Shown here one piece after another: positions 22,395-58,144 of a stretch of 64,000 bases of DNA. The notes below the pieces were generated by a model. That model was not told the origin of the DNA. It ran no database searches and was given only the letters and a program-made list of their open reading frames with translations. Made by a program: the position numbers and the translations under genes. Positions within the stretch are counted from its first letter, which is position 1; every line of letters begins with the position of its first letter. Origin of the DNA: Jiangella sp. DSM 45060 (lineage in GTDB: Bacteria > Actinomycetota > Actinomycetes > Jiangellales > Jiangellaceae). The DNA lies in assembly GCF_900105175.1 (NCBI RefSeq), contig NZ_LT629771.1, forward strand, positions 3,410,001 to 3,474,000, given 5' to 3'.

Positions 22395-24383
22395 TCAACG
22401 GCGCCGGCTGGCGAACTCCACGTTGACGTCAGCGCGCGCGTCGGCCAGCACGAAGCTGTACGACGTGGTCGTGTGCGGCTGATGGATCTTCAGGTAGCGG
22501 TCGGTCACCGCGAGGCCGTCGAACCGGTGCACCACCCGGCCGTCCTCCACGCGGGAGCTGAACGACCAGCCGGTGATCTCGGTGTAGGTCTCGTTGTCCG
22601 GGCTGCTGTACAGCCGGTAGTCCGCGCCGGTGAGCCGGGTCGCGGCATCCCGGTCGCGCAGTTCGACGGCGCTGATGCCGTGGGCGGCCGGGATGCGCAC
22701 GTCCAGGCCGAGCGAGCGGGCCCGGTAGTCCAGCGCCAGTGACGCCGGCGCGCAGGCCCGGTCCCAGCCGTAGACGTGCCGGGTCTGCGGCGCGGTGTCC
22801 AGTTCGGCGAAGCCGACCCGCCACGGCCGGCTCGGCGGCGGCCCGCTCAGTCGCAGCACCGATCCGTGGCCGACCCCGGCCGCGGCCAGGGTGTCCGACC
22901 GGTCCAGGATCCGGCCGTCCAGGGTCAGCCGGAGGCCGGGGCCGGCGCAGGACAGCAGGCCGGCGTCCGCGTCGATCACCTCACCGACGGTGGTCGTCGC
23001 CGGGTGGTTGAGCTTGCGGCTGGCGAACGGCCAGGCCCACTGGTCGCGGTCCGCTCGGTCGACGAAGAACGTGGGTGACGTCTGCGCCGTCGCGGCCGCG
23101 GCGTCGGCCTGTGCCTGGCAGGTCGCGGCGTCCGAGGCGTCCTCGACGACGTTGGCGACGACCTTCGACGGCTGCCCGGGCAGGAAGACCTGGAACAGCA
23201 CCAGCAGCCGGTCGTCGTCCAGACGCAGGAAGTCGGGCTCGCCGGTGGCGGCGCCCAGGTTCGCCGCACCGGACGGGTCGCGCAGCCGCACCTTGCCGGT
23301 CCACGTCACGCCGCCGTCGAAGGAGACGTGCAGGGCGGCCTGGCCGATCCGGGTGCCCGCGGCGTCGAGCTCGCGGTGACCCATGATCAGCTTGGCCTGG
23401 CCCTCGGCCAACCGGTCGGTGCACGGCGCGTACGTCAGCGACAGCGCCTCCGCCTGCTGGCCGGTGGCCACCGGGTCCGTCCAGGTCGCGCCGGCGTCGG
23501 CGGAGTAGGACAGGTACACCTGCGCCCGGTTCGGCCCGACCCCGGTGGCGTAGCGGATCACCGCGACGATGCGGCCGTCCGGCAGCTCGTGCAGGGCCAG
23601 CTCGTTCGCGCCGCTGGTGTACTTGGCGCTGTGGAACGGCGGGAACTGCGGCGGGTTGTTGGGGTCGTAGGCGATGGTCCGGTAGTCGGACCAGGTCTGA
23701 CCGCCGTCGAACGAGCGCAGCACGCCGGAGCGCCAGCGCATCGGGTCGGTCTCCCAGCCGTCGACCAGCTCGAGCGCGCCCCAGATCGGCAGCAGCAGGG
23801 TGCCGTCCTCCAGCTCGAGGATCCGGCCGCCGCCGACGTGCGCCTCGCGGATCGGGATCGGCAGCTCGACCGGCTCGTCGCGCCCGGTCCAGGTCTGCCC
23901 GCTGTCGGTGGACCGGGCCACGAACAGCACCGACTCGCGGTTGTTGTAGTTCGTGTGGTTCACCGCGTCGTTGTACGGCAGCAGGATGGTGCCGTCGGAC
24001 AGCGTGGCCATGCCGCGGGTGGCCGCGATGCTGCCGCGGTCGCCGAAGAGCCTCGGCTCGGCCACGACCTCCGACGGTCCCCACGTCCGGCCCTCGTCGG
24101 CAGACCTGATCATCCGCAGCTGACCGCCCGGGTGCGCGTCGCCGGAGGTGTTGAACGCGGCCAGCAGGTCGCCGTTGGGCGCGCGGGTGAGCGCCGGACG
24201 CTGGGCCGGCAGCGTCGCCTCGCCGGGGAAGGTCTCCGGGCCGGTCACGTTCCAGGCGTCGACGACGCGCAGCGCCGGGTCGGGCGCCTCGGCGGCGCCG
24301 GCGGCGATCGGAGCGGGCGCGACGCCGACGAGCGCGAGCGCCACGCCGGTCGCCAGAGCGAGGAGAGCGGGCGAACGCGTCAT
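22395..24383 (-). CDS. Secreted sialidase-like propeller with ubiquitin-like and discoidin-like domains
   Basis: 662 residues. A signal peptide covers about 1-32. The BNR/Asp-box sialidase-like propeller (about 45-425) has Asp-boxes SADEGRTW, STDSGQTW, SFDGGQTW, SADAGATW and SFDGGVTW, an early Arg in QRPALTRAPNG at the FRIP position and a Glu in ANELALHELPDGR. Residues about 437-513 form a beta-grasp/ubiquitin-like domain (TTVGEVID... LDGRILDRSDTLAAAGVGHGSVLRL), and about 520-660 a discoidin-like module. It lacks the N-terminal module of the plus-strand paralogues. ATG 24383 overlaps the neighbouring stop. Probably removes a terminal acidic sugar outside the cell; sialidase specificity is unproven. 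Confidence 0.88.
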   Translation of the reverse strand: MTRSPALLALATGVALALVGVAPAPIAAGAAEAPDPALRVVDAWNVTGPETFPGEATLPAQRPALTRAPNGDLLAAFNTSGDAHPGGQLRMIRSADEGRTWGPSEVVAEPRLFGDRGSIAATRGMATLSDGTILLPYNDAVNHTNYNNRESVLFVARSTDSGQTWTGRDEPVELPIPIREAHVGGGRILELEDGTLLLPIWGALELVDGWETDPMRWRSGVLRSFDGGQTWSDYRTIAYDPNNPPQFPPFHSAKYTSGANELALHELPDGRIVAVIRYATGVGPNRAQVYLSYSADAGATWTDPVATGQQAEALSLTYAPCTDRLAEGQAKLIMGHRELDAAGTRIGQAALHVSFDGGVTWTGKVRLRDPSGAANLGAATGEPDFLRLDDDRLLVLFQVFLPGQPSKVVANVVEDASDAATCQAQADAAAATAQTSPTFFVDRADRDQWAWPFASRKLNHPATTTVGEVIDADAGLLSCAGPGLRLTLDGRILDRSDTLAAAGVGHGSVLRLSGPPPSRPWRVGFAELDTAPQTRHVYGWDRACAPASLALDYRARSLGLDVRIPAAHGISAVELRDRDAATRLTGADYRLYSSPDNETYTEITGWSFSSRVEDGRVVHRFDGLAVTDRYLKIHQPHTTTSYSFVLADARADVNVEFASRRR

Positions 24384-26463: not shown

Positions 26464-26528
26464 GTATCTCTCCACACGAAGATTCGGTCGGACGGGGACA
26501 CTTCAGGTCTTGCGAAACCGACACCTGC

Positions 26529-26586
26529 GTTCCACCAATCAGAACGCGCTGTTTCAGTAGTCTGTCGACCCGGGCTCTGGTGTCAA
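26529..26586 (-). promoter_or_regulatory. Promoter and operator of the aldolase-sialidase-importer operon
   Basis: On the minus strand TTGACA (26586-26581) is followed, after 17 bp, by a poor -10 (AGACTA, 26563-26558) and at once by TGAAAC-N5-GTTCTG-N5-TGGAAC (26556-26529). Two of three half-sites match the consensus fully. An extra half-site-like CGAAAC lies at 26513-26518, and a GTTTCG-N5-TGGAAC pair at 26618-26634 overlaps the end of the Rid gene. Confidence 0.65.
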
Positions 26587-26613
26587 GAGTTCCGGGCGCA
26601 CGAAATTGGACCG

Positions 26614-27003
26614 TTACGTTTCGCTTACTGGAACCTCGTCGTCACCGACGTACGCGACGCACTCCAGCTCGACCTGGAGGAAGTCGAATCCCATCGACGA
26701 CGTCGTCCGCGCCGGCCGCGGGTGCTTGAACGTCTCGCGGTACAGCTCGTTGTAGCGGGGCAGGCTCGCCTCGTCGCGGACGAAGGCCGCGATCTTCACG
26801 ATCTGGTCCTCCCTCCCGCCGGCCTGCGCCAGCACGCGGCGCAGATTCTCCACGCTGCGCATGAACTCCTCCTCGAAGGTGCCCGGGATGAACGCACCGG
26901 TCTCCGGATCGGTCGACGCCTGGCCGGAGATGAACAGCCAGCCGCCCGCCCGTACCGCCGGCGAGTACGACGCGTCGGGATCCGGCGCGAAATGCTCAAT
27001 CAA
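26614..27003 (-). CDS. Rid/YjgF/UK114 family protein
   Basis: 129 residues, starting at a TTG (27003) that overlaps the upstream stop (TTGA). Family traits: GWLFISGQASTDPETG, VLAQAGGREDQIVKIAAFVRD and VELECVAYVGD. Rid proteins hydrolyse reactive enamine/imine intermediates released by PLP enzymes, which fits the PLP lyase and aminotransferase of this locus. The conserved Arg of RidA near the C-terminus (R in RPARTTS) appears present, supporting deaminase activity. Confidence 0.88.
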   Translation of the reverse strand: MIEHFAPDPDASYSPAVRAGGWLFISGQASTDPETGAFIPGTFEEEFMRSVENLRRVLAQAGGREDQIVKIAAFVRDEASLPRYNELYRETFKHPRPARTTSSMGFDFLQVELECVAYVGDDEVPVSET

Positions 27004-29888: not shown

Positions 29889-29905
29889 CCGCCGTCCACC
29901 TCTCG

Positions 29906-29976: not shown

Positions 29977-29989
29977 TTGGAGGCGGCAG

Positions 29990-31388: not shown

Positions 31389-32006
31389 ATGTTTCTGTCT
31401 CGGATGCGATGGTGGAGAAGTGGTCGGCGCATCGCCGGCGGCGGTGTCGCACTCGCCGCATCGGCGGCCCTGACACTCACAGCGCTGGCAGGACTACCGA
31501 GCGCCGCAGCACAAGACGACCCCACCGACGAAGAACGCCTCACCACCATGGTCGGCTGGCTCGGCGCCGACACCGACCCCGCCACCGGCCCACTCGCCCA
31601 GATCGGCGGCACCGGCGGCTTCGCCCTCGACCGCGACCGCCGCAGCGTCGGCGCCTTCCTCGCCACACCCGCCCGGATCAACCGCCTGGAACTGACCGCA
31701 TCCGGCAGCACCAGCACCCGACTGGCCGAACAGGACTACACCCTGTGGACCAGCGACGACAACATCACCTACCAACAACTCACCGGATGGTCCTTCCAGG
31801 CGTCAACAACCGACGGCCACCCCGTCCACACCTTCACCAACCTCGACACCACCACCCGCTACATCAAAATCAACACCCGATACACCGACACCGCACACAC
31901 CTTCGTCATGACCAACCGCGCCGCCGACCTCGCCGTCTACGGCACCCCCGACGACCCCTCCCAACCCGACGAAGGCCTCACCGTCACCGACAGAGGCGTC
32001 GCCTAC
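31380..32006 (+). repeat. Long direct repeat, 5' copy (signal peptide plus first module)
   Basis: Near-identical to 34144-34770 (offset 2764). The encoded residues 1-204 of the two proteins are identical, and the DNA even matches in silent positions; one difference is seen before the start (C/T at 31386/34150). Divergence begins abruptly at 32002. Confidence 0.9.
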
Positions 32007-34094
32007 GCGGACCCCGCGGGGGCGGCGTACCGGCCGGCGATCACCCGCGCGCCCAACGGCGACATCCTGGCCACCTTCAACACGACCAGCGATGTCAATC
32101 CGGGCGGGACGATCAACCTCATCCGGTCCACGGACGACGGCAGGACATGGGGTCCGGCGGTCGTCCTCAAGGAGGCGTCGGAGTGGGAGAACGGTTCGAT
32201 CTACTCCAGCCGCGGTATGACCACGCTCTCAGACGGCACGATCCTGTTGCCGTTCAACGAGGGCGTGAACCACTCGCCGTTCAACAACCGTGAGAGCAAG
32301 TTGTTCGTGGCCCGTTCCACGGACTCCGGGCACACGTGGGAAGGGCTCGACACGCCGATCGAGATGCCGGTGGAGACCCGTGAGCATTGGGCGTGCTGCT
32401 CCCGCATCCTGGAGCTGGACGATGGTTCGCTCCTGCTGCCTCTCTGGGGGACCAAGGACCTCGTTCCCGACTGGGAAGCCGACCCGCAGCGATGGCGCGC
32501 CGCACTGGTCAAGTCGTACGACGGCGGCCGCACCTGGACCGACTACTCCACCATCGCCTACGACCCCAACAACCCGGCGCGCGCCAACGGCGCATGGCCC
32601 GACGGATTCAACGAACCGAGCATCGCGCAGCTGCCCGACGGGCGATTGGTCGCGATGTTGCGCTACGAGTCGATCACCCCGGACCTCAGCTCGCCCGACC
32701 GGTTCCGGGTGTACGTCTCGCATTCCTCGGATCGTGGAGCGACCTGGTCACCGGTCAAGGTGACGTCACTGCTGGGCGCCACCCCGTCGGTGGCCATCGC
32801 GCCGTGCACGAATGAGCTCGGTGGTGAAGGGACCAAGCTCGTCTTCGGCTATCGGGACCGGTCCACGATTCCCGGCACGTCGACGCTGCTCAATGCTCCG
32901 GCGGTGAGCGTGTCCTTCGACGAGGGACTCACGTGGACCGGGCACATGCTGCTCCAGCCGCCCGACGGCGGCGCACCGGAGAGCTCGTTGGGCAGCGAGA
33001 TGGACTTCCTCCCGCTCGACGGCTCGCGGCTGTTGACGCTGTTCCAGTACCGGTCCGCCGACGGTGGCGCGTACAAGCTGGGCTACAACGTGCTCCAGGA
33101 CGCGACCGGCGGCGAGTGTCGAACCCAGCTCGAGCAGGCGCGCGAGACGGCCGAGAAGAACCTGACGCTCTTCGTCGAGCGCGGCGACCGCGACGACTGG
33201 CCGATGCGCCTCGCGGTCGGGCAGCTGACGTTCCCCCCATCGACGCTGGTCGGCGAGGTCGTGTCGGCGGCGGCGGATGCGGTGTCCTGCTCGTCGAGGG
33301 ACGGAGCGTACGTCGTCGACGAGGAGGGCCGGCGACTGGACGCGACCACCTCGTTGACCGATGCGGGAGTGGGCCACGGCGACGTCCTGACGGTGTACTC
33401 GGATGATCAGGCGAACTCGCACCTCACCGCGGGCCACGCCGAGCAGGACGGGTTTCCGCAGACGCGGCATGTGTACGCATGGAGCGACACCTGTGACTAC
33501 CGGCTCCCGCTGGACTCCGCATCGCGCAGCCTCGGCCTGCACGTCGAGATACCCGACGGCCAAGCCATCAGATCGGTGAGCCTGCGCGACACCGACGACA
33601 CCTCACGCCTCACCAGCGACAACTACACCCTGTGGGCCAGCCAGGACAACGACGACTACCACCAGATCACCGACTGGTCCCTGACCACCGACGTCATCGA
33701 CGGCCGACTGGTACACACCTTCACCGGACTGTCCGTGTCCGAGCCCTACCTGAAGATCCACCAATCCCACGCCACCGGCACCGAGACCTTCGTCATCGAC
33801 AGCATGCGCGACGACGTCGACGTCAGCTTCGACGCCTGCCCCGACGGACACTCCACGGAAACCACCATCGCCTTCGGCGCCGCCGACTCCGGCGTCCCCA
33901 ACTACGACCAAGGCGACGGCTGCACCTTCCTCGACCAACTCTGGGCCCAAGCACCATTCGCCGACCACGCCACCTTCGTCCGCGCCGTGCGCGACCTCAC
34001 CGTGACCTGGCGAACCGACGACCTCCTCACCCGCTACGAGACCGCCCAGGTACTCGCAGCAGCCGCCCGATCCGGCACACCCCCACAGCATTAG
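31389..34094 (+). CDS. Secreted sialidase-like multidomain protein
   Basis: 901 residues. ATG 31389 follows GGAGGTCTG. Signal peptide about 1-41 ending AAAQDD; discoidin-like module 1 about 50-187; sialidase-like propeller about 205-590 with Arg in YRPAITRAPNG, SSRGMTTLSDG, Glu in FNEPSIAQLPDGR and Asp-boxes STDDGRTW, STDSGHTW, SYDGGRTW, SSDRGATW, SFDEGLTW; ubiquitin-like domain about 594-671; module 2 about 690-815; and a helical C-terminal tail (GDGCTFLDQLWAQAPF...) of about 80 residues also seen in actinobacterial exported hydrolases. Transcribed with the next gene, 58 bp on. Presumed extracellular exo-glycosidase, with the modules binding glycan. Confidence 0.88.
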   Translation: MFLSRMRWWRSGRRIAGGGVALAASAALTLTALAGLPSAAAQDDPTDEERLTTMVGWLGADTDPATGPLAQIGGTGGFALDRDRRSVGAFLATPARINRLELTASGSTSTRLAEQDYTLWTSDDNITYQQLTGWSFQASTTDGHPVHTFTNLDTTTRYIKINTRYTDTAHTFVMTNRAADLAVYGTPDDPSQPDEGLTVTDRGVAYADPAGAAYRPAITRAPNGDILATFNTTSDVNPGGTINLIRSTDDGRTWGPAVVLKEASEWENGSIYSSRGMTTLSDGTILLPFNEGVNHSPFNNRESKLFVARSTDSGHTWEGLDTPIEMPVETREHWACCSRILELDDGSLLLPLWGTKDLVPDWEADPQRWRAALVKSYDGGRTWTDYSTIAYDPNNPARANGAWPDGFNEPSIAQLPDGRLVAMLRYESITPDLSSPDRFRVYVSHSSDRGATWSPVKVTSLLGATPSVAIAPCTNELGGEGTKLVFGYRDRSTIPGTSTLLNAPAVSVSFDEGLTWTGHMLLQPPDGGAPESSLGSEMDFLPLDGSRLLTLFQYRSADGGAYKLGYNVLQDATGGECRTQLEQARETAEKNLTLFVERGDRDDWPMRLAVGQLTFPPSTLVGEVVSAAADAVSCSSRDGAYVVDEEGRRLDATTSLTDAGVGHGDVLTVYSDDQANSHLTAGHAEQDGFPQTRHVYAWSDTCDYRLPLDSASRSLGLHVEIPDGQAIRSVSLRDTDDTSRLTSDNYTLWASQDNDDYHQITDWSLTTDVIDGRLVHTFTGLSVSEPYLKIHQSHATGTETFVIDSMRDDVDVSFDACPDGHSTETTIAFGAADSGVPNYDQGDGCTFLDQLWAQAPFADHATFVRAVRDLTVTWRTDDLLTRYETAQVLAAAARSGTPPQH
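33452..34070 (+). repeat. Long direct repeat, first copy (second module plus tail)
   Basis: Near-identical to 36255-36873 (offset 2803), covering the second discoidin-like module and helical tail. A few substitutions are seen (for example near 33909 and 34041). The intervening propeller and ubiquitin-like segments of the two genes are much more diverged. Confidence 0.88.
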
Positions 34095-34143: not shown

Positions 34144-34770
34144 GGAGGTTTGATGTTTCTGTCTCGGATGCGATGGTGGAGAAGTGGTCGGCGCATCGCC
34201 GGCGGCGGTGTCGCACTCGCCGCATCGGCGGCCCTGACACTCACAGCGCTGGCAGGACTACCGAGCGCCGCAGCACAAGACGACCCCACCGACGAAGAAC
34301 GCCTCACCACCATGGTCGGCTGGCTCGGCGCCGACACCGACCCCGCCACCGGCCCACTCGCCCAGATCGGCGGCACCGGCGGCTTCGCCCTCGACCGCGA
34401 CCGCCGCAGCGTCGGCGCCTTCCTCGCCACACCCGCCCGGATCAACCGCCTGGAACTGACCGCATCCGGCAGCACCAGCACCCGACTGGCCGAACAGGAC
34501 TACACCCTGTGGACCAGCGACGACAACATCACCTACCAACAACTCACCGGATGGTCCTTCCAGGCGTCAACAACCGACGGCCACCCCGTCCACACCTTCA
34601 CCAACCTCGACACCACCACCCGCTACATCAAAATCAACACCCGATACACCGACACCGCACACACCTTCGTCATGACCAACCGCGCCGCCGACCTCGCCGT
34701 CTACGGCACCCCCGACGACCCCTCCCAACCCGACGAAGGCCTCACCGTCACCGACAGAGGCGTCGTCTAC
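34144..34770 (+). repeat. Long direct repeat, 3' partner of 31380-32006
   Basis: Second copy of the start-site, signal-peptide and first-module DNA. The segment is strikingly C-rich on the plus strand, with codons ending in C, unlike the propeller part that follows. Confidence 0.9.
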
Positions 34771-36924
34771 GACGCGAGTGATTCGGGCACCGACACCGCG
34801 TTCTCGCCGGCGATCACCCGTGCGCCCAACGGCGACATCCTGGTCGCTTTCAAGACCACTGGCGACGTGCAGCCAGACGGTGTGATCAAGCTGGTCCGCT
34901 CGACCGACGGCGGGCAGACCTGGAGCCCGCCGGAAACGCTGGTGGAGCCGCAGATCTTCGACGGCGGCGCCATGTACGTCAGCGGTGGCAACCTCGTCAC
35001 GCTGCGCGACGGCACGATCCTGCTCGTCTTCAACGAGGGCGTGAACTATTCGCCTTACAACAACCGAGACAGCAAGATGTTCGTGGCGAGGTCGACCGAC
35101 AACGGCCACACCTGGGTCGGCCTCGACGAGCCGGTCCAGCTTCCCGCCGAGATCCAGCGCGAGCACTGGGCCTGCTGTTCACGCGTCAGCGAGCTCGACG
35201 ACGGCACGCTCATGATGAGCCTGTGGGGGACCCTGGAACTGGCCGACGACTGGGAGCTCGACCCGCAGCGGTGGCGCGCCGCACTGGTCAAGTCGTACGA
35301 CGGCGGCCGCACCTGGACCGACTACTCCACCATCGCCTACGACCCGCACATCCCTGCCGGCAACAGGGGCAACGGGTCCCGCGGTGGCGGTGTCAACGAG
35401 TCCAGTGTGGTTCAGCTGCGCGACGGACGGCTCATGGCCGTCATTCGATACGAGGGCCCGGTCGCGCTGCGCCCCGGAGCAGACCCGTTCTGGCTCTACG
35501 TGTCGTACTCCGAGGACGTGGGGCGGACCTGGTCGGAGCCGGTCGTCAGCGAGATCCGCGGCCAGGCCATCCTCATGGGCGAGGCGCCTTGCAGCGCGTC
35601 GTTGCCCGAGGACCAGACCAAGGTGATGCTGGGCCACCGCATCATGAGCTCGGCGGGACGCAGTCCTACGCCGGACGAGCCCTATGCCGACCTCGCCGGC
35701 GTCAGCGTCTCGTTCGACGGCGGCGCCACCTGGCCCAACCGCGTCGTGCTTCAGCATCCCGCGGGCCTCGCACCGGGCGAGTACCGAGCCGCCCAGACCG
35801 ATTTCCTCCAGCTCGACGGCAACCGCGTGCTCACCGTGTTCCAGTACCAGGACCAGAAGGTCGGGCCCTACAGCCTGGCGTTCAACGTGCTGCAGGACGG
35901 AACCGGCGACGAGTGTGTGCAGGAATGGCAGAACGCCCAGGAGGACAGCCAGTCCACGCTCAGCCTGCACGTCCAGCGGATCGGCCTCGCCGACTGGCCC
36001 TACCCGCTCGCCCGCATCCACGTTCGCCTCGACCCGTCGACGCCCGTGGACACACTGCTCGAGCAGGCGGCCGGCCTCATGACCTGCCGGCAGGAGCAGG
36101 CCCGGCTGACGGTCCGCCGCAACGGGGAGGACCAGCCGATCGCCTCCGGCCAGACGTTGGAACAGGCCGGGCTGCGGACCGGCGACGTGATCACCGTGAA
36201 CGGCACCGAGCAGGCCGACGGTCCACTGGTCACCGGCCATGTCGAGTACGACCTGTTTCCGCAGACGCGGCATGTGTACGCATGGAGCGACACCTGTGAC
36301 TACCGGCTCCCGCTGGACTCCGCATCGCGCAGCCTCGGCCTGCACGTCGAGATACCCGACGGCCAAGCCATCAGATCGGTGAGCCTGCGCGACACCGACG
36401 ACACCTCACGCCTCACCAGCGACAACTACACCCTGTGGGCCAGCCAGGACAACGACGACTACCACCAGATCACCGACTGGTCCCTGACCACCGACGTCAT
36501 CGACGGCCGACTGGTACACACCTTCACCGGACTGTCCGTGTCCGAGCCCTACCTGAAGATCCACCAATCCCACGCCACCGGCACCGAGACCTTCGTCATC
36601 GACAGCATGCGCGACGACGTCGACGTCAGCTTCGACGCCTGCCCCGACGGACACTCCACGGAAACCACCATCGCCTTCGGCGCCGCCGACTCCGGCGTCC
36701 CCAACTACGACCGAGGCGACGGCTGCACCTTCCTCGACCAACTCTGGGCCCAAGCACCATTCGCCGACCACGCCACCTTCGTCCGCGCCGTGCGCGACCT
36801 CACCGTGACCTGGCGAACCGACGACCTCCTCACCCGCTACGAGGCCGCCCAGGTACTCGCAGCGGCCGCCCAGTCCGACATCACACACGCCCCCTCAGCA
36901 CAGCAGGAAGCCGTACCGCGGTAG
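34153..36924 (+). CDS. Secreted sialidase-like multidomain protein, likely catalytically impaired
   Basis: 923 residues from ATG 34153 (GGAGG upstream). Same architecture as the preceding gene and identical to it over the first 204 and nearly identical over the last 200 residues. The propeller has Asp-boxes STDGGQTW, STDNGHTW, SYDGGRTW, SEDVGRTW and SFDGGATW and keeps Glu in VNESSVVQLRDGR. The Arg present in all paralogues at the FRIP-like site is Ser here (FSPAITRAPNG), and the conserved SRGMTTL reads VSGGNLVTL. It may bind rather than cleave, or use a different substrate. The ubiquitin-like domain (PVDTLLEQAAG...GQTLEQAGLRTGDVITV) is present. Confidence 0.87.
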   Translation: MFLSRMRWWRSGRRIAGGGVALAASAALTLTALAGLPSAAAQDDPTDEERLTTMVGWLGADTDPATGPLAQIGGTGGFALDRDRRSVGAFLATPARINRLELTASGSTSTRLAEQDYTLWTSDDNITYQQLTGWSFQASTTDGHPVHTFTNLDTTTRYIKINTRYTDTAHTFVMTNRAADLAVYGTPDDPSQPDEGLTVTDRGVVYDASDSGTDTAFSPAITRAPNGDILVAFKTTGDVQPDGVIKLVRSTDGGQTWSPPETLVEPQIFDGGAMYVSGGNLVTLRDGTILLVFNEGVNYSPYNNRDSKMFVARSTDNGHTWVGLDEPVQLPAEIQREHWACCSRVSELDDGTLMMSLWGTLELADDWELDPQRWRAALVKSYDGGRTWTDYSTIAYDPHIPAGNRGNGSRGGGVNESSVVQLRDGRLMAVIRYEGPVALRPGADPFWLYVSYSEDVGRTWSEPVVSEIRGQAILMGEAPCSASLPEDQTKVMLGHRIMSSAGRSPTPDEPYADLAGVSVSFDGGATWPNRVVLQHPAGLAPGEYRAAQTDFLQLDGNRVLTVFQYQDQKVGPYSLAFNVLQDGTGDECVQEWQNAQEDSQSTLSLHVQRIGLADWPYPLARIHVRLDPSTPVDTLLEQAAGLMTCRQEQARLTVRRNGEDQPIASGQTLEQAGLRTGDVITVNGTEQADGPLVTGHVEYDLFPQTRHVYAWSDTCDYRLPLDSASRSLGLHVEIPDGQAIRSVSLRDTDDTSRLTSDNYTLWASQDNDDYHQITDWSLTTDVIDGRLVHTFTGLSVSEPYLKIHQSHATGTETFVIDSMRDDVDVSFDACPDGHSTETTIAFGAADSGVPNYDRGDGCTFLDQLWAQAPFADHATFVRAVRDLTVTWRTDDLLTRYEAAQVLAAAAQSDITHAPSAQQEAVPR
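36255..36873 (+). repeat. Long direct repeat, second copy (second module plus tail)
   Basis: Partner of 33452-34070. The boundary is sharp at GTTTCCGCAGACGCGG, which is shared by both genes and encodes FPQTR at the edge of the module. Confidence 0.88.
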
Positions 36925-36947
36925 CGCATCGAGGGCGACGCGAACCA

Positions 36948-36985
36948 CCGGCGGGTGCCGCCGATCCTTCGGCGGCACCCGCCGG
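36948..36985 (+). terminator. Strong hairpin terminator after the tandem sialidase-like genes
   Basis: A perfect 17-bp stem (36948-36964 with 36969-36985) around a TCCT loop, 23 bp after the stop codon. No T-run follows, as is common for actinobacterial terminators. Confidence 0.75.
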
Positions 36986-37058
36986 ATCAACGCCCCACAC
37001 GCAGGGCGGACGCCACCGCAAGTTGCAGCAGACACCCCTCGAGGGAAGGAGACACCAC

Positions 37059-38200: not shown

Positions 38201-41119
38201 ATGATCTCGCCCGTTCGGCGCGTTGTCGCCGCAGGGACGGCAGCGGCCCTTCTCTGGGGTGCCGCCGCCGTCGCCATGTCCGTCGCGGCGGCGGAGCCCG
38301 CCGTCCAGGTCGCCGACGAAGCAGAACGCCTCGATTCCGGGGGCGGCCTGCTCAACGCCGACTCCGACCCGGCGACCGGCAGAGTCCCCGCCTTCGGCGG
38401 CAGCGGATCGGTGGCGCTGGACTACCAGCGCCGCAGCGTCGCCGCCGACACCGCGGCTCAGCACCGGATCGAGGGCGCGGAACTCGTCCTGAGCGCCTCA
38501 GGCAGCGCCCCGATCCGGCTGTCGGCGGCTGACTACACGCTGTGGATCAGCGACGACAACATCACCTACCAGCCGGTCCTCGGATGGTCCTTCGAGTCCC
38601 GATCCGAGGACGGCCGGACCATCCACGCCTTCGACGGCTTCGAGGCGACCGGGCGATACCTCAAGATCAACACGCGCTACCAGGACACGGCGTTCACGGC
38701 GGTGCTCCGGAACCTCAGCGCGGACGTTCGCGTCTTCGGCCTGTCCGAGCCGCCGCCCGAGGTGGTGAACGACACCGGCTTGGAGGTCGTGGACCGCGGC
38801 GTGGCCTACGCCGACGACAGCGAGTCCGCGTTCCGGCCGGCGGCGGTGCGCGCCCCCAACGGCGACATCCTCGCCGTCTTCAACACCACCGGAGACGTTC
38901 AGGCCGGCGGGCTGATCCGGCTGATCCGGTCCACGGACGACGGGAGGACGTGGGGCGATCCCGTCACGCTGAAGGCGCCGAGCCTCTTCGAGAACGGGTC
39001 CGTGTGGTCGAGCCGCGGAATGACCACTCTGAGCGACGGGACGATCCTGCTGCCCTTCAACGAGGGCGTGAACTACTCGCCGTACAACAACCGGGACAGC
39101 GTGCTGTACGTGGCCAGGTCGACCGACTCGGGGCAGACCTGGGACGGGCTTGACGAGCCTGTCGAGCTCCCAGCACAGACCAGGGAGCACTGGGCCTGCT
39201 GCTCGCGCGTCCTGGAGCTCGACGACGGCTCGCTGCTCATGTCGATGTGGGGAACCGAGCGTCTCGTCGAGGACTGGCAGACCGACCCCATGCGCTGGCG
39301 GGCGGCCGTCATGCGCTCGCACGACGGCGGTCGCACCTGGACCGACTACTCGACCATCGCCTACGACCCGCACACGCCACCCGGCCCCCTCGGCAACGGC
39401 TCTCGCGGGGGCGGTGTCAACGAGGTGGCGATGACGCAGCTGCCGGACGGGCGCCTGATGGCCGTGATCCGGTACGACCTGACGGGGGTACAGTCGCCGA
39501 ACCCCTTCTGGATGTACCTGTCGTACTCCGAGGACCTCGGACGCACCTGGTCCGACCCCGTCGCCACCCCCGTCATGGCGACGACGCCGTCGCTGGCGGC
39601 CGCGCCGTGCACCGCCGAGCTCCCGCCGGGCGAGACCAAGCTCATGTTCGGCTACCGCACGCACAGCGAGAACGGCCGGAACCCCACACCGCTCGAGCCG
39701 CATCCGGACCTGGCCGCCGTGAGCGTCACCTTCGACGCCGGGGCGACCTGGCGGCACCGCCTGCTGCTGGAGTCGCCCACCGGCGAGTCGTTCCAGGACT
39801 TCCGATCGGCCGAGCCGGAGTTCGTGCGACTCGACGACGGCAGCATCCTCACGCTGTTCCAGTACCAGCCCGGCAAGACCGGCACGTACCGGATCGGGTA
39901 CAACGTCGTCGAGGATCTGACCGGCGACGAGTGCGCCGCGGAGTGGGAGGCCGCGCAGGCGGCCGCCGGCGACGCCGTGAGCGTCCACGTGCAGCGCGGC
40001 AACGCGGGCGAGTGGCCCTACCCGTTCGCCCGCCATCAGCTGACGGTCGACCCGGCCACCACGATCGAGGAGCTGGCGGCCGCGGCCGCGCCGACGGTGA
40101 CCTGCGCCGCCGGAGGCGCCCGGCTGTCGCACGACGGCCGGGTGCTCCCCGCACGCGCCACGGTGGACGACCTCGGCCTGCACGACGGCGATGTCCTGAC
40201 CGTCTCCGGGCCGCCCGGCCGGCGACCGGCCGACGGCGTCCGCGTCGGGCACGTGGAGTTCGACCAGGCCCCGCAGACGCGGCCCGTCTACGGCTGGACC
40301 GGTGACTGCGACTACGGTCTGGCCTGGGACATCCGGGCACAGAGCCTGGGGCTGGACTTCGGGCCCTGGCCGGGACGACAGGTGCGGGCCGTGAGCGTGC
40401 GCGACACCGACGGCGACACCGCGCGAACGGCCGCGTCGTACAGCATCTGGGCCAGCGACGACAACGACACCTTCCGGGAGGTCACCGGCTGGTCCTTCGA
40501 GGAGAGCACCGACGCACAGGGCCGGGTGGTCCATCGGTTCGGCGACCTCGCCGTCACCGAGCGCTACCTCAAGATCCAGCAGGACTCGGCCACGATCCCG
40601 GAAACCGGCGCGACGTTCACGATCGACAGCATGATCGACGACGTCGACGTCGAATTCGCCGGCCGTGCCTGCGACACCACGGTCAGCGGCCCGGCGTTCG
40701 GACCGCTGACGGCGGGAGCCGGCGTCACCTGCCTGGACGGAGCGACTCTCTACGGCTCGATGACCGTGCGGAACGGCGCCGTCCTGCTCGTGCGGGACTC
40801 CACGGTGGCCGGGCCGCTGCTGTCCGAGGGCGCGGCAGCGGTCGCCGTCTGCGACGCCCGGATCGCCGGCCCTGTGACCATCACCGGGACCACCGGCACC
40901 GTGCTGATCGGCGCGGGCGGTGACCCGGACGGCACCGACTGCGGTGGCAACGCCGTGACCGGCCCGGTGCAGCTCGCCGGGAACACAGGAGGCGTCTGGA
41001 TCGGCGGCAACGTCGTCCGCGGCTCCCTCGACTGCACGGAGAACGACCCCGCGCCGCGGAACACCGGCACCCGCAACGTGGTCACCGCCCCGGTGCCGGG
41101 CCAGTGCGCCGGCCTGTGA
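38201..41119 (+). CDS. Secreted sialidase-like multidomain protein with C-terminal beta-helix
   Basis: 972 residues from ATG 38201 (GAGAGGGAACC upstream; an earlier ATG at 38174 abuts the operator). Signal peptide about 1-31; module 1 about 48-180; propeller about 205-590 with FRPAAVRAPNG, SSRGMTTLSDG, Glu408 in VNEVAMTQLPDGR and Asp-boxes at 244-251, 307-314, 373-380, 443-450 and 510-517; ubiquitin-like domain about 594-670 (TIEELAAAAA...ATVDDLGLHDGDVLTV); module 2 about 680-820; and a repeat-rich, probably right-handed beta-helix 824-972 ending GQCAGL. First gene of an operon reaching at least 59258. Probably an extracellular exo-acting glycosidase. Confidence 0.88.
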   Translation: MISPVRRVVAAGTAAALLWGAAAVAMSVAAAEPAVQVADEAERLDSGGGLLNADSDPATGRVPAFGGSGSVALDYQRRSVAADTAAQHRIEGAELVLSASGSAPIRLSAADYTLWISDDNITYQPVLGWSFESRSEDGRTIHAFDGFEATGRYLKINTRYQDTAFTAVLRNLSADVRVFGLSEPPPEVVNDTGLEVVDRGVAYADDSESAFRPAAVRAPNGDILAVFNTTGDVQAGGLIRLIRSTDDGRTWGDPVTLKAPSLFENGSVWSSRGMTTLSDGTILLPFNEGVNYSPYNNRDSVLYVARSTDSGQTWDGLDEPVELPAQTREHWACCSRVLELDDGSLLMSMWGTERLVEDWQTDPMRWRAAVMRSHDGGRTWTDYSTIAYDPHTPPGPLGNGSRGGGVNEVAMTQLPDGRLMAVIRYDLTGVQSPNPFWMYLSYSEDLGRTWSDPVATPVMATTPSLAAAPCTAELPPGETKLMFGYRTHSENGRNPTPLEPHPDLAAVSVTFDAGATWRHRLLLESPTGESFQDFRSAEPEFVRLDDGSILTLFQYQPGKTGTYRIGYNVVEDLTGDECAAEWEAAQAAAGDAVSVHVQRGNAGEWPYPFARHQLTVDPATTIEELAAAAAPTVTCAAGGARLSHDGRVLPARATVDDLGLHDGDVLTVSGPPGRRPADGVRVGHVEFDQAPQTRPVYGWTGDCDYGLAWDIRAQSLGLDFGPWPGRQVRAVSVRDTDGDTARTAASYSIWASDDNDTFREVTGWSFEESTDAQGRVVHRFGDLAVTERYLKIQQDSATIPETGATFTIDSMIDDVDVEFAGRACDTTVSGPAFGPLTAGAGVTCLDGATLYGSMTVRNGAVLLVRDSTVAGPLLSEGAAAVAVCDARIAGPVTITGTTGTVLIGAGGDPDGTDCGGNAVTGPVQLAGNTGGVWIGGNVVRGSLDCTENDPAPRNTGTRNVVTAPVPGQCAGL

Positions 41120-41163: not shown

Positions 41164-44040
41164 ATGCCGCAACGGACCCGCCCGCTCCCCCGCCGCCGGC
41201 TCGCCGCCGTCCTGGCCGCCGCCGCGATGGCACTGGCCTGCCTGGCGCCGGCCGCCGGCGCCGAGCCCGAAACGAGCACCGCCGAGACCGCCGATCCGGT
41301 GCCGGCCGCCGACCCGGCCATCCCGTCGGCCGCCGGACTGCTGGCCTCGGACCCCACCCCCGCCACCGGTGCCGTGCCCGGCTTCGGCGCCTCCGGCTCG
41401 GTCGCCCTCGACTACCGCCGGCGCAGCGTCGGTGCCGACCTGTTCGGGCCGGCGACCGTCCGCCGGATCGAGCTGGTCGACAGCGACGCGACCACTCGCC
41501 TGCTGGCGTCCGACTACACGCTGTGGACCAGCGACGACAACGTCACCTACGAACCGCTGACCGGCTGGACGATGACCGCCGGCACCGAGGGCGGGCGCCT
41601 CGTGCACACCTTCGCCGGCTTCGAGGTGACGACACGCTACGTCAAGATCAACACGCGGTACGACGACACCGCCTTCACGTTCGTTCTGAGCAACCTCACG
41701 GCCGACGTCCGTCTCTACGGGGACCCGCCCGCGTCCGGGCAGGACAACCACACGGGACTGACGGTCGTGGACAGCGGCACGGTGTACGCCGACGCCGTGA
41801 CGCCCTCGTACCGGCCGGCCATCACCAGGGCTCCGAACGGCGACCTGCTGGTCGCCTTCAACACCAGCAGCGACCTGCGTCCCGGCGGCGAGATCCAGTT
41901 GGTGCGGTCCACGGACGGCGGCGCGACCTGGGGCGAGCCGGTCACGGTGGCGTCGCCCCGGTACTTCGAGAACGGCGCGATCCACGCCAGCCGCGGCATG
42001 ACGACCCTCAGCGACGGCACCGTCCTGCTGCCGTTCAACGACGGCGTGAACTACGCGCCGTTCAACCACCGAGACAGCGTGCTGTTCGTCGCGCGCTCGG
42101 ACGACTCGGGTCTGACCTGGGACGGCGTCGACGAGCCGGTGCAGCTGCCGGTGGAGACGCAGGAACACTGGGCCGGTTCCCGAATCCTGGAGCTGGACGA
42201 CGGCTCGCTGATCATGGGCCTGTGGGGCACGCTCGACCTGGTCGACGACTGGGAGACCGACCCGATGCGCTGGCGGGCGGCCACCGTCAGGTCGTACGAC
42301 GGCGGGCGCACCTGGACCGACTACGCGACCATCGGGTACGACCCGAACACGCCGCCGGACTTCCCCCGTCCGGGGACACTGCAGCCCTACGGCATCAACG
42401 AACAGAGCCTGGTCGAGCTCGGGAACGGCCGGCTCATGGCGATCATGCGGTTCAACGGTTCGCTGCGTCAGCCCGAGCCGTTCCGCACCTACGTGTCGTA
42501 CTCCGGCGACGGCGGCCGCACCTGGTCCGACCCGGTATCCGTGCCGCTCGAGGTGGAGACGCCGTCGCTGACGGCCGCCCCCTGCACAACCCACCTGGGG
42601 GACGGGCGGAGCAAGCTGCTGTACGGCTACCGCGACCGCGCGGACTACCCGTCCGGTATAGCGGCGGCGAGCGTGTCGTTCGACAACGGCACGACCTGGG
42701 AGGGCCAGCTCGTCTTCGAGGACCCCAGCGGCCGCCCGCCCGGCGTGTTCACGTCGGCCGAGCCGGACTTCCTGCAGCTCGACGGCGACCGCATGCTGGT
42801 GGTCTTCCAGTCCAGGGTGGCGCCGGCGCCGTTCGGCCTGGCGTTCAACATCGTCCAGGACGAGAGCCCCGACGAGTGCCGCGAGCACGCCGAGCGGGCC
42901 CAGGCGGCGACCGAGGCCGCGCCGGCCCTACAGGTCGAGCGCGCGGACCGGGCCGGCTGGCCGTTCGGCTACGGGGTGACGCAGCGCGCGTACGACGCCG
43001 GCACGCCGATCGGGGAGGTCGCCACGGATGCCGCACAGTCCGTGTGGTGCTCCGCCGACGAGCCCGTGCTGTACGCCGGTGACCGCCCGCTCGACCCGGA
43101 GGCGACGCTGGCCGAGGCCGGCGTCCGCAATGGCGACGTCGTGCGGGTGCGCTCCGCCCGGCCGGATCACCGATGGTGGCGGGTCGGGTTCGCCGACCTC
43201 GACGTCTTCCCCGAGACCCGGCACCTGTACGCCTGGGACGACGCGTGCCCGCACCGGCCGCTCACGCTGGACCATCAGTCGCGCAGCCTCGGCCTGAGCA
43301 TCAGCATCCCCGCGGGTCAGCAGGTCGGCGCCGTCGAACTGGCCGACGACGACGCCGGCTCACGCCTGACCGCGTCCGACTACCGGCTGTTCGCCGGCCC
43401 GGACAACGAGACCTTCCGGGAGCTGACCGGCTGGACGCTGTCGACACGGGTCGACGACGGGCGTCTGGTGCACCGGTTCGACGGCCTGGCCATGACCGAC
43501 CGCTACCTGAAGATCCACCAGGTCCGCGACGACGACGCCGGCACCTTCGTGCTGGCAGACCCGTCCGGCGACGACGTCTCGATCGAGCTGAGCCCGCGGG
43601 ACTGCGACACCACGATCACCGGCACCCGGAACGGACCGCTGACCGTCGACGACGGCCTGACCTGCCTGGTGGACGCCACCCAGGTCGGCGCGGTGACGGT
43701 CTCCGCCGGAGCGCAGCTGGCGGTCCGCGATTCCTCGATCATCGGCCCGGTGCTGTCCACGCGGGCCGCGGGCCTGACCCTCTGTGACACCCGGGTGGTG
43801 GGCACGGTCGCCGTCACCGGGACGACAACCCTCGCGCTCGTCGGCGACGCCGGCATGGGCTGCGAGCCGAACACCGTCATCGGCGCGGTGTCGTTCACCG
43901 GCAACACCGGCGGCGTCCGGGTGGGCGGCAACGAGGTGACCGGACGGCTGTGGTGCGACGGGAACGATCCGGCACCGGTGAACGGCGGCGTTCCCAACGT
44001 GGTGTCCGGGTCGCGGGCGGGACAGTGCGCCGGGCTGTGA
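41164..44040 (+). CDS. Secreted sialidase-like multidomain protein with C-terminal beta-helix
   Basis: 958 residues; ATG 41164 with GAGGAG seven bases upstream gives a good signal peptide (about 1-33). Module 1 about 55-187; propeller about 210-585 with YRPAITRAPNG, ASRGMTTLSDG, Glu in INEQSLVELGNGR and Asp-boxes STDGGATW, SDDSGLTW, SYDGGRTW, SGDGGRTW and SFDNGTTW; ubiquitin-like domain about 588-665 (PIGEVATDAA...ATLAEAGVRNGDVVRV); module 2 about 672-810; beta-helix-like tail ending GQCAGL. It lacks the CC pair seen in EHWACCSR of three paralogues (EHWAGSR here), so details of the active site differ. Confidence 0.88.
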   Translation: MPQRTRPLPRRRLAAVLAAAAMALACLAPAAGAEPETSTAETADPVPAADPAIPSAAGLLASDPTPATGAVPGFGASGSVALDYRRRSVGADLFGPATVRRIELVDSDATTRLLASDYTLWTSDDNVTYEPLTGWTMTAGTEGGRLVHTFAGFEVTTRYVKINTRYDDTAFTFVLSNLTADVRLYGDPPASGQDNHTGLTVVDSGTVYADAVTPSYRPAITRAPNGDLLVAFNTSSDLRPGGEIQLVRSTDGGATWGEPVTVASPRYFENGAIHASRGMTTLSDGTVLLPFNDGVNYAPFNHRDSVLFVARSDDSGLTWDGVDEPVQLPVETQEHWAGSRILELDDGSLIMGLWGTLDLVDDWETDPMRWRAATVRSYDGGRTWTDYATIGYDPNTPPDFPRPGTLQPYGINEQSLVELGNGRLMAIMRFNGSLRQPEPFRTYVSYSGDGGRTWSDPVSVPLEVETPSLTAAPCTTHLGDGRSKLLYGYRDRADYPSGIAAASVSFDNGTTWEGQLVFEDPSGRPPGVFTSAEPDFLQLDGDRMLVVFQSRVAPAPFGLAFNIVQDESPDECREHAERAQAATEAAPALQVERADRAGWPFGYGVTQRAYDAGTPIGEVATDAAQSVWCSADEPVLYAGDRPLDPEATLAEAGVRNGDVVRVRSARPDHRWWRVGFADLDVFPETRHLYAWDDACPHRPLTLDHQSRSLGLSISIPAGQQVGAVELADDDAGSRLTASDYRLFAGPDNETFRELTGWTLSTRVDDGRLVHRFDGLAMTDRYLKIHQVRDDDAGTFVLADPSGDDVSIELSPRDCDTTITGTRNGPLTVDDGLTCLVDATQVGAVTVSAGAQLAVRDSSIIGPVLSTRAAGLTLCDTRVVGTVAVTGTTTLALVGDAGMGCEPNTVIGAVSFTGNTGGVRVGGNEVTGRLWCDGNDPAPVNGGVPNVVSGSRAGQCAGL

Positions 44041-52101: not shown

Positions 52102-52124
52102 ACGCCGCCGAAACGAGGTGGACC

Positions 52125-55100: not shown

Positions 55101-55160
55101 GACACCGCCGGCGGGATGCCCGCGGTCACCAGCGTCGGCACCACCGTCCCCGTCCCCTGA
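52125..55160 (+). CDS. Tat-exported DUF2341-like/sialidase-like multidomain protein
   Basis: 1011 residues from ATG 52125 (GAGGTGG upstream); a long frame open further upstream is not used. Tat signal PRRTFLALSA. An uninterrupted discoidin-like module (about 60-170), a DUF2341-like domain (about 180-285: WAYRTPVVI...ITVYAYSGNPGATN), an Asp-box propeller (about 300-660: SADGGRSW, STDGGLTW, STDDGVTW) with Glu in KGITEAGIAELGDGS, a lectin-like segment (LRLCLQEGF), another module (FDYQNRSLGADL...ARYVKVSQPYADTAF) and a beta-rich end closing with DELIVQDTAGG as in its paralogue at 46287. Extracellular carbohydrate-active enzyme by inference. Confidence 0.83.
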   Translation: MSEPIPRRTFLALSATTMATVALPAVAPGRAAAAPTALASSNGWTAADASPFASALTDLGRTTPLALDYDYRSVGADLGGVRSFTAVEIVQASSLSRLNSRDLALYVSDDNAAWQRVDDAEHVELGSTTWLYLGAGRNARYVKVHSHRGDTSGYTCVINNLAADLRVYDFGPHEFVGGNGGGWAYRTPVVITNANAVTLRDRAAFLSFQTLGTAALIAAGKLAPDLRDLRLADASGRELHAYSNSYGVYVRVPQIAASSSITVYAYSGNPGATNRIDRDTGALQVQYGHRVLRRLPASADAIKVAQLPGGRMITVSTAPSLGGINARYSADGGRSWGALETFKAFTGVPGAKGEGPEGLLWDPVRGVLTFFFRISFAYTEDGDFTDPAQNNILTYVIQAGSFTATGRPVWDAAGPRHVPLTNRTTGNPASWALSHTNPIRTSSGAYLHVMSYIVRPDGTFVSSVIRSTDGGLTWTQSMDELTLPGQFGFEKGITEAGIAELGDGSIAILARQQLGQKTFLAASRSTDDGVTWSAATDSTVLSSNTQPAMFPGAAPGSLMLTWSGHNGFSQTSYYRNNLTAAYSDDDGGSWHGYQDLLGATELSAPGWATVTDLRQAQNADSAPSGTGDRLFGWITPGDTPKTLLVEQFDRYVRDSQGALDTVNFRKAAGTANGTELADWRWWRSSRTGTLDFITGQRATRRAVRLRSSADAGASASRLFPAIRRGYVRAAVRLTATGGGLRLCLQEGFSDSYNAPGTALSLLVTPSGEVRATTSDTFVTTADIGHQNDDTTPADGRVIALGQYGAVGFDYQNRSLGADLYTTRTVSSIEVVDNDLVGPAGNRLDPGQLRLWRSSDNAAWTEVTGWTGVEAGSVITLSGPSFSARYVKVSQPYADTAFTFANDRPRILRVLPDLGSPQVFAPLSTPTTLTTGSWHQLFVDIDLPGGAIAVSVDGTPRATLALVHAAQVVSHLFLAFDPAATAGDVAVDELIVQDTAGGMPAVTSVGTTVPVP

Positions 55161-55180
55161 ACGGCAGGAGTGAGACACCC

Positions 55181-58144
55181 ATGACCACGCTCCTACGACC
55201 GCGCTCGATCACGGCGCTGCTCCTCGCCGCGCTCACCCTGCTGGCCGCCGTCGCCGTGACGGCCCCGGCGTCCGGTGCGGCCGGCGCCGAGGACGAGCGG
55301 CTGACGGCGAGCTTCGCCCTCCTCGGCCCGGACCCCTACCCCGCGACCGGCCGGGTCGGCGGCGCGTTCTCCACGACCGGCGCGGTCGCCCTGGACTACC
55401 TGCGGCGCAGCCTGGTGGCCGACCTGGGCACGGTCTCGGCGGTCGGCCGGGTCGAACTCGTCGACCGCGACGCCACCAGCCGCCTCACCGCGTCGGACTA
55501 CACGCTGTGGAGCAGCCGCGACAACCAGTCCTACCAGCGGCTGGACGACTGGACGCTGCGGACGCGGCAGCAGGACGGCCGGCTCGTGCACGAGTTCACC
55601 GGGTTGTCCGCCGAGGCCCGCTACGTCAAGATCACCACCCGGTACGACGACACCGCGTTCACCTTCGTCGTAGACAAGCCGGCCGAGGACGTCCGCCTCT
55701 TCGGCACGGCGGGTGAACCGGACCCCGGCGCGGCCCTGGACGTGGTCGACTCCTGGAAGGTGACCAGCGAGGCCACCTACCCGGACGTCGAGCGCCCGGA
55801 CACGATGTCGGCCTTCCGCCCGGCCATCACGGAGGCGCCCAACGGGGATTTCCTGATCATCTTCAACACCTCCACCGACGCCAACCCCGGCGGTGAGGTC
55901 CGGCTGATCCGCTCCACCGACCGAGGCCGCACCTGGGGACCGTCGGAGATCATCGCCGCACCGAGCGGCCGGTACGAGGGCGGCAGCATCGCGTCGTCGC
56001 GGGGCATGACCACGCTGCGCGACGGCACGATCGTCATGACCTACGGCGAGGCCGTCAACCACACCCGGTTCAACAACCGCGAGGGCGTGAAGTTCGTCGC
56101 CCGTTCCACCGACAACGGCCACACCTGGGAGGGCACCGATGAGCCGATCGACTTCCCGGTGCCGTTCCGCGAGCAGTTCGACGCCGGCGGCCGGATGATC
56201 GAGACCGCGGACGGCACGCTGCTGCTGCCGGTCTGGGGCACCCGGGAGCTCGCCGACGACTGGGAGACCAACCCGCGGCGCAGCGAGTCAGGGGTGCTGC
56301 GTTCCTTCGACGGCGGCAGGACCTGGCCGGAGTTCGAGGTCATCGGCTACGACCCGCACGACCCGGTGCACTCGCCGCCGTTCTACCCGTACGTGTTCGG
56401 GGCCAGCTCGACCGAGTTCGCCATGCAGCAGCTGCCGAGCGGCCGCATCGTCGCCGAGATCCGCTACGAGAACGTCGTGGACCCGGTGCGCTGGCAGCTC
56501 TACCGCTCCTACTCCGACGACGACGGCGCCACCTGGTCCACCCCGGAGCCGGTCGGCTACGTCGCACCGGCCTACTCGTTCGCGTTCGCGCCGTGCACCG
56601 ACGAGCTGGCCGGCGGGCAGAGCAAGCTGGTGCTCGGCGCCAGAGGCATCACCCAGCTCGGCAAGGCCATCATGGCGGTGTCCTTCGACGAGGGCGTGAC
56701 CTGGCAGGACCCGTTCCCCCTCGAGCACCCCGACGGCAACGACTTCTACGGCACCCTCGGCGGCGAGCCCGACTTCCTGCGGCTGGACGACCGCCGGGTG
56801 CTGGTGGTCTTCCAGGCCTCCGACGACGACCGGCCGTACATCCCGCCGGGCGACCCCGGCAAGCCGTGGCACATCATGGCCAACGTCCTCGAGGACGCCG
56901 CGCCCGACGAGTGCCGGGCCCAGGCCGCCGCGGCCGGCGAGCGGCAGGCGAGCACGCCGAACGTCTTCGTCCACCGGGCCGACCGCGCGGAATGGACCTG
57001 GGCGCTGTCCGCGAAGAACGCCGTGCACCCGGCCGGCACGACCGTCGGCGAGTTCGTCGCGACCCAGGCGCCGGCGTTGAGCTGCCGCGCCGACCAGCCG
57101 CTGCGGCTGCGCGACGAGGACGGCCGCGCCCTGGATCCCGGCGACACGCTGGCCGAGGCGGGCGTGCGCAACGGCGACTCCGTCGAGCTGAGCACCGCGC
57201 AACCCATGGCCCGGCCGTTCCGCATCGGCGCGGCCGAGCTGGACGTGTCACCGGCCACCCGGCACCTCGCGAACTGGGACGACGCCTGCGCGCCCACGCC
57301 GATCGCGCTGGACTACCGGTCCCGCGGCCTCGGCCTGGACGTGGCGGTCCCGGCCGGCGAAGTCCTGTCCGCGGTGCAGCTGCGCGACAGCGCGGGGAAC
57401 ACCCGGCTGAAGCAGTCCGACTACCGGCTGTGGACGAGCCCCGACAACGTGCACTTCACCGAGGTGACCGGCTGGTCGTTCGCGTCCGGCGTCGATGACG
57501 GCCGGATCGTGCACCGGTTCGGCGACCTCGCCGTCGCCGACCGATACCTCAAGGTGACGCACCCGTACACCGACGCGGCGTACACGTTCGTCCTGGACGA
57601 CCCGCGCGAGGACATCTCGCTCGAGTTCGCCGCGCGGGCCTGCGACAGCGTCGTCACCGGGCCCGTCACCGGGCCGCTCACCATCGACGGCGACGGCACC
57701 ACCTGCGTCACCGGCGCCACCATCGCCGGGCCGGTCACCGTCGAGGCCGGCGCGTCCGTGTCGGTGCGGGACAGCCGCATCACCGGTCCGCTGACCTCCA
57801 GCGGCGCCACCGCGATCTCCGTCTGCGACTCGACCCTGACCGGACGGGTCGCGGTGAGCGGCAGCACCGGCCCGGTGTTGATCGGCGAGGCCGACGGGCA
57901 CGACTGCGGGCCGAACACGATCACCGGCCCACTGAGCCTGGACGCGAACACGTCGACGATCCGGGTGGCGGGTAACCGGATCGCCGGAGCGGTCACGCTG
58001 ACCGCCAACACGTTCGCGTCCTCGGCCTACCTCGGCGGCAACCGGATCATCGGGCCGCTGCGCTGCACCGGCAACACACCGGAGATCGACGGCGGCGGCA
58101 ACGACGTCACCGGCCGTGTGAGTGGCCAGTGCGCCGGATTGTGA
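55181..58144 (+). CDS. Secreted sialidase-like multidomain protein with C-terminal beta-helix
   Basis: 987 residues. Signal peptide about 1-34; module 1 about 42-175; propeller about 205-590 with FRPAITEAPNG, SSRGMTTLRDG, Glu412 in STEFAMQQLPSGR and Asp-boxes STDRGRTW, STDNGHTW, SFDGGRTW, SDDDGATW and SFDEGVTW; ubiquitin-like domain about 597-672 (TVGEFVATQA...DTLAEAGVRNGDSVEL); module 2 about 680-815; longest beta-helix-like tail of the set (about 820-987), ending GQCAGL. Its central part is closest to the minus-strand paralogue at 22395. It follows the preceding gene by 20 bp and precedes a dehydrogenase gene by 7 bp. Confidence 0.88.
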   Translation: MTTLLRPRSITALLLAALTLLAAVAVTAPASGAAGAEDERLTASFALLGPDPYPATGRVGGAFSTTGAVALDYLRRSLVADLGTVSAVGRVELVDRDATSRLTASDYTLWSSRDNQSYQRLDDWTLRTRQQDGRLVHEFTGLSAEARYVKITTRYDDTAFTFVVDKPAEDVRLFGTAGEPDPGAALDVVDSWKVTSEATYPDVERPDTMSAFRPAITEAPNGDFLIIFNTSTDANPGGEVRLIRSTDRGRTWGPSEIIAAPSGRYEGGSIASSRGMTTLRDGTIVMTYGEAVNHTRFNNREGVKFVARSTDNGHTWEGTDEPIDFPVPFREQFDAGGRMIETADGTLLLPVWGTRELADDWETNPRRSESGVLRSFDGGRTWPEFEVIGYDPHDPVHSPPFYPYVFGASSTEFAMQQLPSGRIVAEIRYENVVDPVRWQLYRSYSDDDGATWSTPEPVGYVAPAYSFAFAPCTDELAGGQSKLVLGARGITQLGKAIMAVSFDEGVTWQDPFPLEHPDGNDFYGTLGGEPDFLRLDDRRVLVVFQASDDDRPYIPPGDPGKPWHIMANVLEDAAPDECRAQAAAAGERQASTPNVFVHRADRAEWTWALSAKNAVHPAGTTVGEFVATQAPALSCRADQPLRLRDEDGRALDPGDTLAEAGVRNGDSVELSTAQPMARPFRIGAAELDVSPATRHLANWDDACAPTPIALDYRSRGLGLDVAVPAGEVLSAVQLRDSAGNTRLKQSDYRLWTSPDNVHFTEVTGWSFASGVDDGRIVHRFGDLAVADRYLKVTHPYTDAAYTFVLDDPREDISLEFAARACDSVVTGPVTGPLTIDGDGTTCVTGATIAGPVTVEAGASVSVRDSRITGPLTSSGATAISVCDSTLTGRVAVSGSTGPVLIGEADGHDCGPNTITGPLSLDANTSTIRVAGNRIAGAVTLTANTFASSAYLGGNRIIGPLRCTGNTPEIDGGGNDVTGRVSGQCAGL

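Follow-up and report, generated by a model that had tools for sequence, protein, structure and literature searches.

In a 64,000-nucleotide window of the Jiangella sp. DSM 45060 genome (7.49 Mb in a single contig, NZ_LT629771.1; the window is contig positions 3410001-3474000), six genes, which we name 22395, 31389, 34153, 38201, 41164 and 55181, encode sialidase-like proteins whose translations all contain the same domain of about 80 residues. The order of modules is identical along these six proteins and a seventh sialidase-like protein, whose copy of the domain lies at contig positions 3328768-3329064, about 80 kb outside the window: a sialidase-type propeller is followed by the ~80-residue domain, named Ubl here for its predicted ubiquitin-like fold, and then by an F5/8C-like module (Table 1). 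The original prediction had described a segment of about 78 residues after the propeller in all six genes, which translation and profile scores confirm, and had placed it at about residues 594-672 of the 38201 protein, which holds, as the Ubl occupies residues ~593-669 of 972. The 909-aa ORF at 22395, on the minus strand, is too long; judged by homology and by a start resembling a signal peptide, this gene likely begins at an ATG near 24383, giving 662 aa.

Scored against a profile of the remaining own-genome copies, each copy reached 85-109 bits, compared with at most 10.3 bits across 500 shuffles per copy, which shows that the resemblance does not arise by chance and led us to reject a chance motif. 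Between pairs of the seven copies, identity ranges over 24-45% in the Ubl, 44-61% in the propeller and 40-64% in the C-terminal module, where one pair reaches 97%, making the Ubl the most divergent of the domains compared. The motif first written for it fits best in 22395, 31389 and 55181; 34153 and 38201 differ from it in a number of places.

Table 1. Ubl copies, the proteins that carry them and modules of the 38201 protein (positions in the window)
Feature	Position	Strand	Evidence
Ubl + leading helix, 22395 gene	22836..23138	-	profile of other copies, YukD match
Ubl + leading helix, 31389 gene	33102..33407	+	profile of other copies, YukD match
Ubl + leading helix, 34153 gene	35899..36210	+	profile of other copies, YukD match
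Ubl + leading helix, 38201 gene, residues 573-672	39917..40216	+	modelled copy, Foldseek, Pfam ubiquitin cut-off passed alone
Ubl + leading helix, 41164 gene	42862..43161	+	profile of other copies, YukD match
Ubl + leading helix, 55181 gene	56897..57202	+	profile of other copies, YukD match
Propeller-Ubl-F5/8C protein, likely 662 aa, without N-terminal F5/8C module	22398..24383	-	translation, Pfam
Sialidase-like protein, F5/8C-like modules at N- and C-terminal ends	31389..34094	+	translation, Pfam
Tandem paralog of 31389, near-identical outside propeller + Ubl	34153..36924	+	translation, Pfam, DNA identity
Sialidase-like protein, 972 aa, modelled full length	38201..41119	+	Pfam, model, Foldseek
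Sialidase-like protein	41164..44040	+	translation, Pfam
Sialidase-like protein	55181..58144	+	translation, Pfam
Sialidase-type propeller of 38201 protein, with invariant Cys470	38780..39940	+	Foldseek, alignment, Cys conservation
C-terminal F5/8C-like module of 38201 protein, with invariant Cys703	40244..40666	+	Pfam, model, Cys conservation

Predicted fold, relatives and distribution of the Ubl

The AlphaFold model of the 38201 Ubl, built with 19 sequences (pLDDT 90.4), displays a leading helix and then the strand and helix order of ubiquitin, beta1-beta2-alpha1-beta3-beta4-beta5, as in ubiquitin-like beta-grasp domains. Using this model in Foldseek, we found 611 PDB matches at E<=0.001, with Caldiarchaeum (archaeal) ubiquitin and SUMO at the top and TM-scores, normalised to the target, of 0.7-0.8 for ubiquitin and SUMO. 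A profile of the seven copies, compared with PDB sequences, retrieved ubiquitin-like proteins almost exclusively (RAD23, redesigned ubiquitin, ubiquilin, SUMO and a bacterial Ubl). As securely as prediction allows, the segment is a ubiquitin-type beta-grasp; this fold had been proposed from the start, and structure prediction on the 38201 copy, named then as a check, duly returned it. The unit also includes two parts lying outside the motif noted at first. One is the leading helix (residues 575-591 in 38201); the other is a beta1-beta2 loop, long and conserved with the pattern RxDRxxWxWP, in which Arg608 and Trp614 (numbering of that conservation count) are kept in 18 of 19 Ubl family members.

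The nearest Pfam family of the Ubl is YukD (PF08817, gathering score 27 bits), which belongs to type VII secretion, the bacterial setting in which such domains are most familiar. Whole-protein scans of the six proteins gave YukD, ubiquitin, Rad60-SLD or TmoB at the Ubl, each below its curated cut-off; two of the seven copies exceeded the YukD threshold in the own-genome search, YukD was matched at E<=0.1 by 18 of 19 family members when the domains were scanned alone, and the 38201 Ubl scanned in this way surpassed the ubiquitin cut-off. Profile-profile comparison, the other check suggested originally, yielded probabilities of 97.5% with EccD-type Ubls, 96.9% with the Ubls of reading frames of ~1,500 aa and 0.1% with the control, where the two high values are not independent evidence because the EccD comparison set was recovered with the same Ubl profile. 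When we scanned seven of the weak matches elsewhere in the class, four were clear EccD proteins, one was a borderline EccD, and two were ~1,500-aa frames with a weak YukD match, probably FtsK/EssC-type proteins. Judged by sequence comparison, the Ubl is nearest to the YukD/EccD branch of the ubiquitin-type beta-grasp domains, and the kinship with YukD, EccD and ubiquitin put forward at the outset is thus upheld by Pfam, by the profile search of PDB sequences and by profile-profile comparison. The N-terminal Ubl of YukD/EccD has the same fold and shares with the sialidase Ubl, besides the profile-profile match, the C-terminal-half pattern L..dG..L....TL..aGv.dG.vL.l. In contrast to the cytosolic YukD/EccD domains, however, the sialidase Ubl is exported and internal, harbors a Cys-bearing leading helix, a Cys at the end of alpha1 and a long Trp-containing beta1-beta2 loop, and has no type VII genes beside it or detected in the genome.

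Strong matches to the Ubl were limited, among 395 genomes of the class, to Jiangella and a second Jiangellaceae genus. They were present in 4 of 12 Jiangella genomes, two of the genus having Ubl loci identical to loci on J. muralis and J. anatolica contigs, and in one genome of the second genus; a sample of 396 genomes of the phylum, at E<=1e-5, gave the own genome only. A full sialidase-like homolog with the Ubl is present in Virgibacillus subterraneus (Bacillota); in 161 genomes of its family, the domain was found in Virgibacillus itself and in none of the other 160, and the plasmid records searched gave no match. Among the matches listed from the genomes sampled, the Ubl is therefore confined to part of the Jiangellaceae and a single Virgibacillus, and the isolated Virgibacillus copy suggests horizontal transfer.

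Architecture and surroundings of the sialidase-like proteins

The full-length model of the 38201 protein (pLDDT 82.5, pTM 0.70) displays, in order, an N-terminal F5/8C-like module, the propeller (residues 195-571), the leading helix, the Ubl, a second F5/8C-like module and a C-terminal tail of short strands, bearing out the position between propeller and second module that had been proposed. The propeller-Ubl-F5/8C core is constant, and the N-terminal module and C-terminal tail are absent from some homologs. By Pfam, Foldseek and alignment, we found a GH33-type propeller fold and BNR (Asp-box) matches. Asp232, Glu408 and Arg424 of the 38201 protein align with GH33 catalytic residues, and we take their counterparts in NedA, the large sialidase of Micromonospora viridifaciens, to be Asp92, Glu260 and Arg276. 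At the position of the GH33 Tyr nucleophile (residue 538, 39812-39814 in 38201), a blade alignment anchored by hand places Glu in 15 of 17 homologs; of the other two, the 34153 protein has Gln and a distant homolog has Tyr. The standard sialidase mechanism is therefore not to be assumed.

Beside the 22395 gene lie genes for an Opp/Dpp-type ABC transporter, an aldolase of the DapA/N-acetylneuraminate-lyase type and Gfo/Idh/MocA oxidoreductases, and its J. muralis ortholog is likewise flanked by an aldolase and oxidoreductases, a setting that suggests acidic-sugar uptake. Directly adjoining the 22395 gene is a BNR_2 protein that lacks the Ubl (24380-25543). Two more large BNR_2 proteins without it, both with F5/8C-type modules, are encoded at 46287-49805 and 51825-55160, one of the pair having a TAT-type signal match and the other a DUF2341 match. 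The product of 49834-52101 harbors a FIMAH domain and a TAT-type signal match, and is otherwise without a Pfam family; that of 36435-38030 (likely start near 37059) contains repeated 'DGDYEIYVMNPDGTGQTNLT'-like units and resembles, by eye, a TolB-type propeller.

A proposed structural role for the Ubl and competing explanations

Four cysteines, and no others, are conserved without exception in the 17 homologs; in 38201 numbering, they are Cys470 in the propeller, Cys578 in the leading helix, Cys635 in the Ubl and Cys703 in the C-terminal module. The tandem genes 31389 and 34153 are mosaics: up to about codon 195, through the N-terminal module, their DNA is 100% identical; identity is 38-93% across the propeller and Ubl and returns to 97-100% at about codon 698, just after the Ubl, staying there almost until the end. 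The propeller and Ubl have diverged together in this pair, and thus behave as one cassette, flanked by segments that, to judge from these identities, are recent copies or have been homogenised.

Based on these data, we lean, with a confidence slightly above even, toward a model in which the Ubl is a rigid, disulfide-held structural spacer between the propeller and the C-terminal module. In this model, a stiff Ubl, stapled by putative disulfides (most simply Cys470-Cys578 and Cys635-Cys703), would fix the C-terminal module, of a glycan-binding type, in place with respect to the active face of the propeller, and would play the part that the immunoglobulin-like module has in the M. viridifaciens sialidase. 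We favor such a spacer over the hinge suggested at first because the four invariant cysteines span the propeller, the Ubl and the C-terminal module; the constant core, the shared divergence of propeller and Ubl, and the same three-part order in NedA also argue for it. Moreover, the strong divergence of the Ubl fits a conserved structure rather than a common binding surface, although low identity could also reflect diversifying binding instead of neutral drift, and the conserved Trp-rich loop could equally be a binding site.

These two reservations lead to a second explanation, possible although we do not expect it to prevail, in which the Ubl recognises a protein or glycan as a binding or docking module, with the Trp-containing beta1-beta2 loop as its contact surface. 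The conservation of that loop, including its nearly invariant Arg and Trp, and the marked differences in the Ubl among paralogs are compatible with this idea, and beta-grasp domains often act in binding (PMC1949818); however, this stretch may just as well lie packed on the propeller, the sequence beyond it is poorly conserved, and the Ubl is absent from non-sialidase proteins of the own genome. In an evolutionary variant, which we consider speculative and rather improbable, a YukD-type domain was captured from a type VII lineage and rebuilt, with the Trp loop and two cysteines, as an extracellular binding module; its differences among the seven paralogs would then tune each enzyme to its own glycans or partners. 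It is also unlikely that the Ubl is a folding aid, nucleating or closing the propeller as an intramolecular chaperone during export and having little role later: it joins the last blade directly via the helix and diverges jointly with the propeller, as such an aid might, but related propellers in other searched genomes lack it and presumably fold, and two of the four invariant cysteines suggest a connection to the C-terminal side.

The original prediction had also connected the domain to type VII secretion, and given that YukD/EccD is its nearest family, the Ubl could dock the enzymes to the EccC/EccD machine. This part of the prediction is not supported, and we regard such a role as very improbable. 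The Ubl proteins appear to be Sec-exported, since they display Sec-type N-terminal signals (by eye); in the own genome, we detected neither EccD nor, apart from the seven Ubl proteins, any YukD above threshold. The sole WXG100-like match of this genome, a lone 92-aa reading frame at contig positions 4753379-4753600, is below the cut-off. No type VII linkage (EccC, EccD or WXG100) was found, the neighbors being genes of the sugar-uptake type, and we rejected the proteins as type VII cargo. Finally, despite its ubiquitin-type fold, there is almost no chance that the Ubl is a covalent modifier, and we discarded this candidate, as in both translation and model the domain is internal to an exported protein, is followed by the F5/8C-like module and has no free C-terminal Gly-Gly for conjugation.

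Comparison with known exported sialidases

Our literature search on Ubls in sialidases and on Jiangella sialidases returned nothing specific to the propeller-Ubl-F5/8C architecture, and in the papers searched we found no earlier description of a YukD/ubiquitin-type middle module in an exported sialidase-like protein. The initial remark that such a domain is not known from exported glycosidases was too strong in general, given the beta-grasp of NanH discussed below. With these proteins, the modules of exported glycan-active proteins come to include a YukD/ubiquitin-type fold. As Pfam scores are mostly below cut-off, automatic annotation would leave about 80 residues per protein blank or invite a false type VII call, and the mosaic pair 31389/34153 offers a natural experiment on domains acting as a unit.

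A close parallel in architecture is NedA (1EUT), which displays the same order of propeller, small middle domain and galactose-binding-like C-terminal module; Foldseek pairs the full 38201 model with the Micromonospora sialidase, and the propeller matches. According to the title of Gaskell 1995, as cited in PMC9782813, the latter enzyme consists of a propeller, an immunoglobulin module and a galactose-binding jelly-roll. Its middle domain is immunoglobulin-like whereas that of the Jiangella proteins is ubiquitin-like, and its nucleophilic Tyr is not conserved in the Jiangella homologs, according to the hand-anchored alignment. A beta-grasp attached to an exported sialidase propeller has been described for Treponema denticola NanH, in which a four-stranded, InlB-like beta-grasp, N0471, precedes the propeller (2026 preprint, PMC12889680). 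N0471, however, is N-terminal and has a half-turn helix, whereas the Jiangella Ubl is C-terminal to the propeller and has the full ubiquitin helix. The B repeat of Listeria InlB is likewise an exported, beta-grasp-like module of a multidomain protein (PMC8900821), but unlike the Jiangella Ubl, it is without the canonical helix, belongs to another protein context and is flexibly linked to its neighbor.
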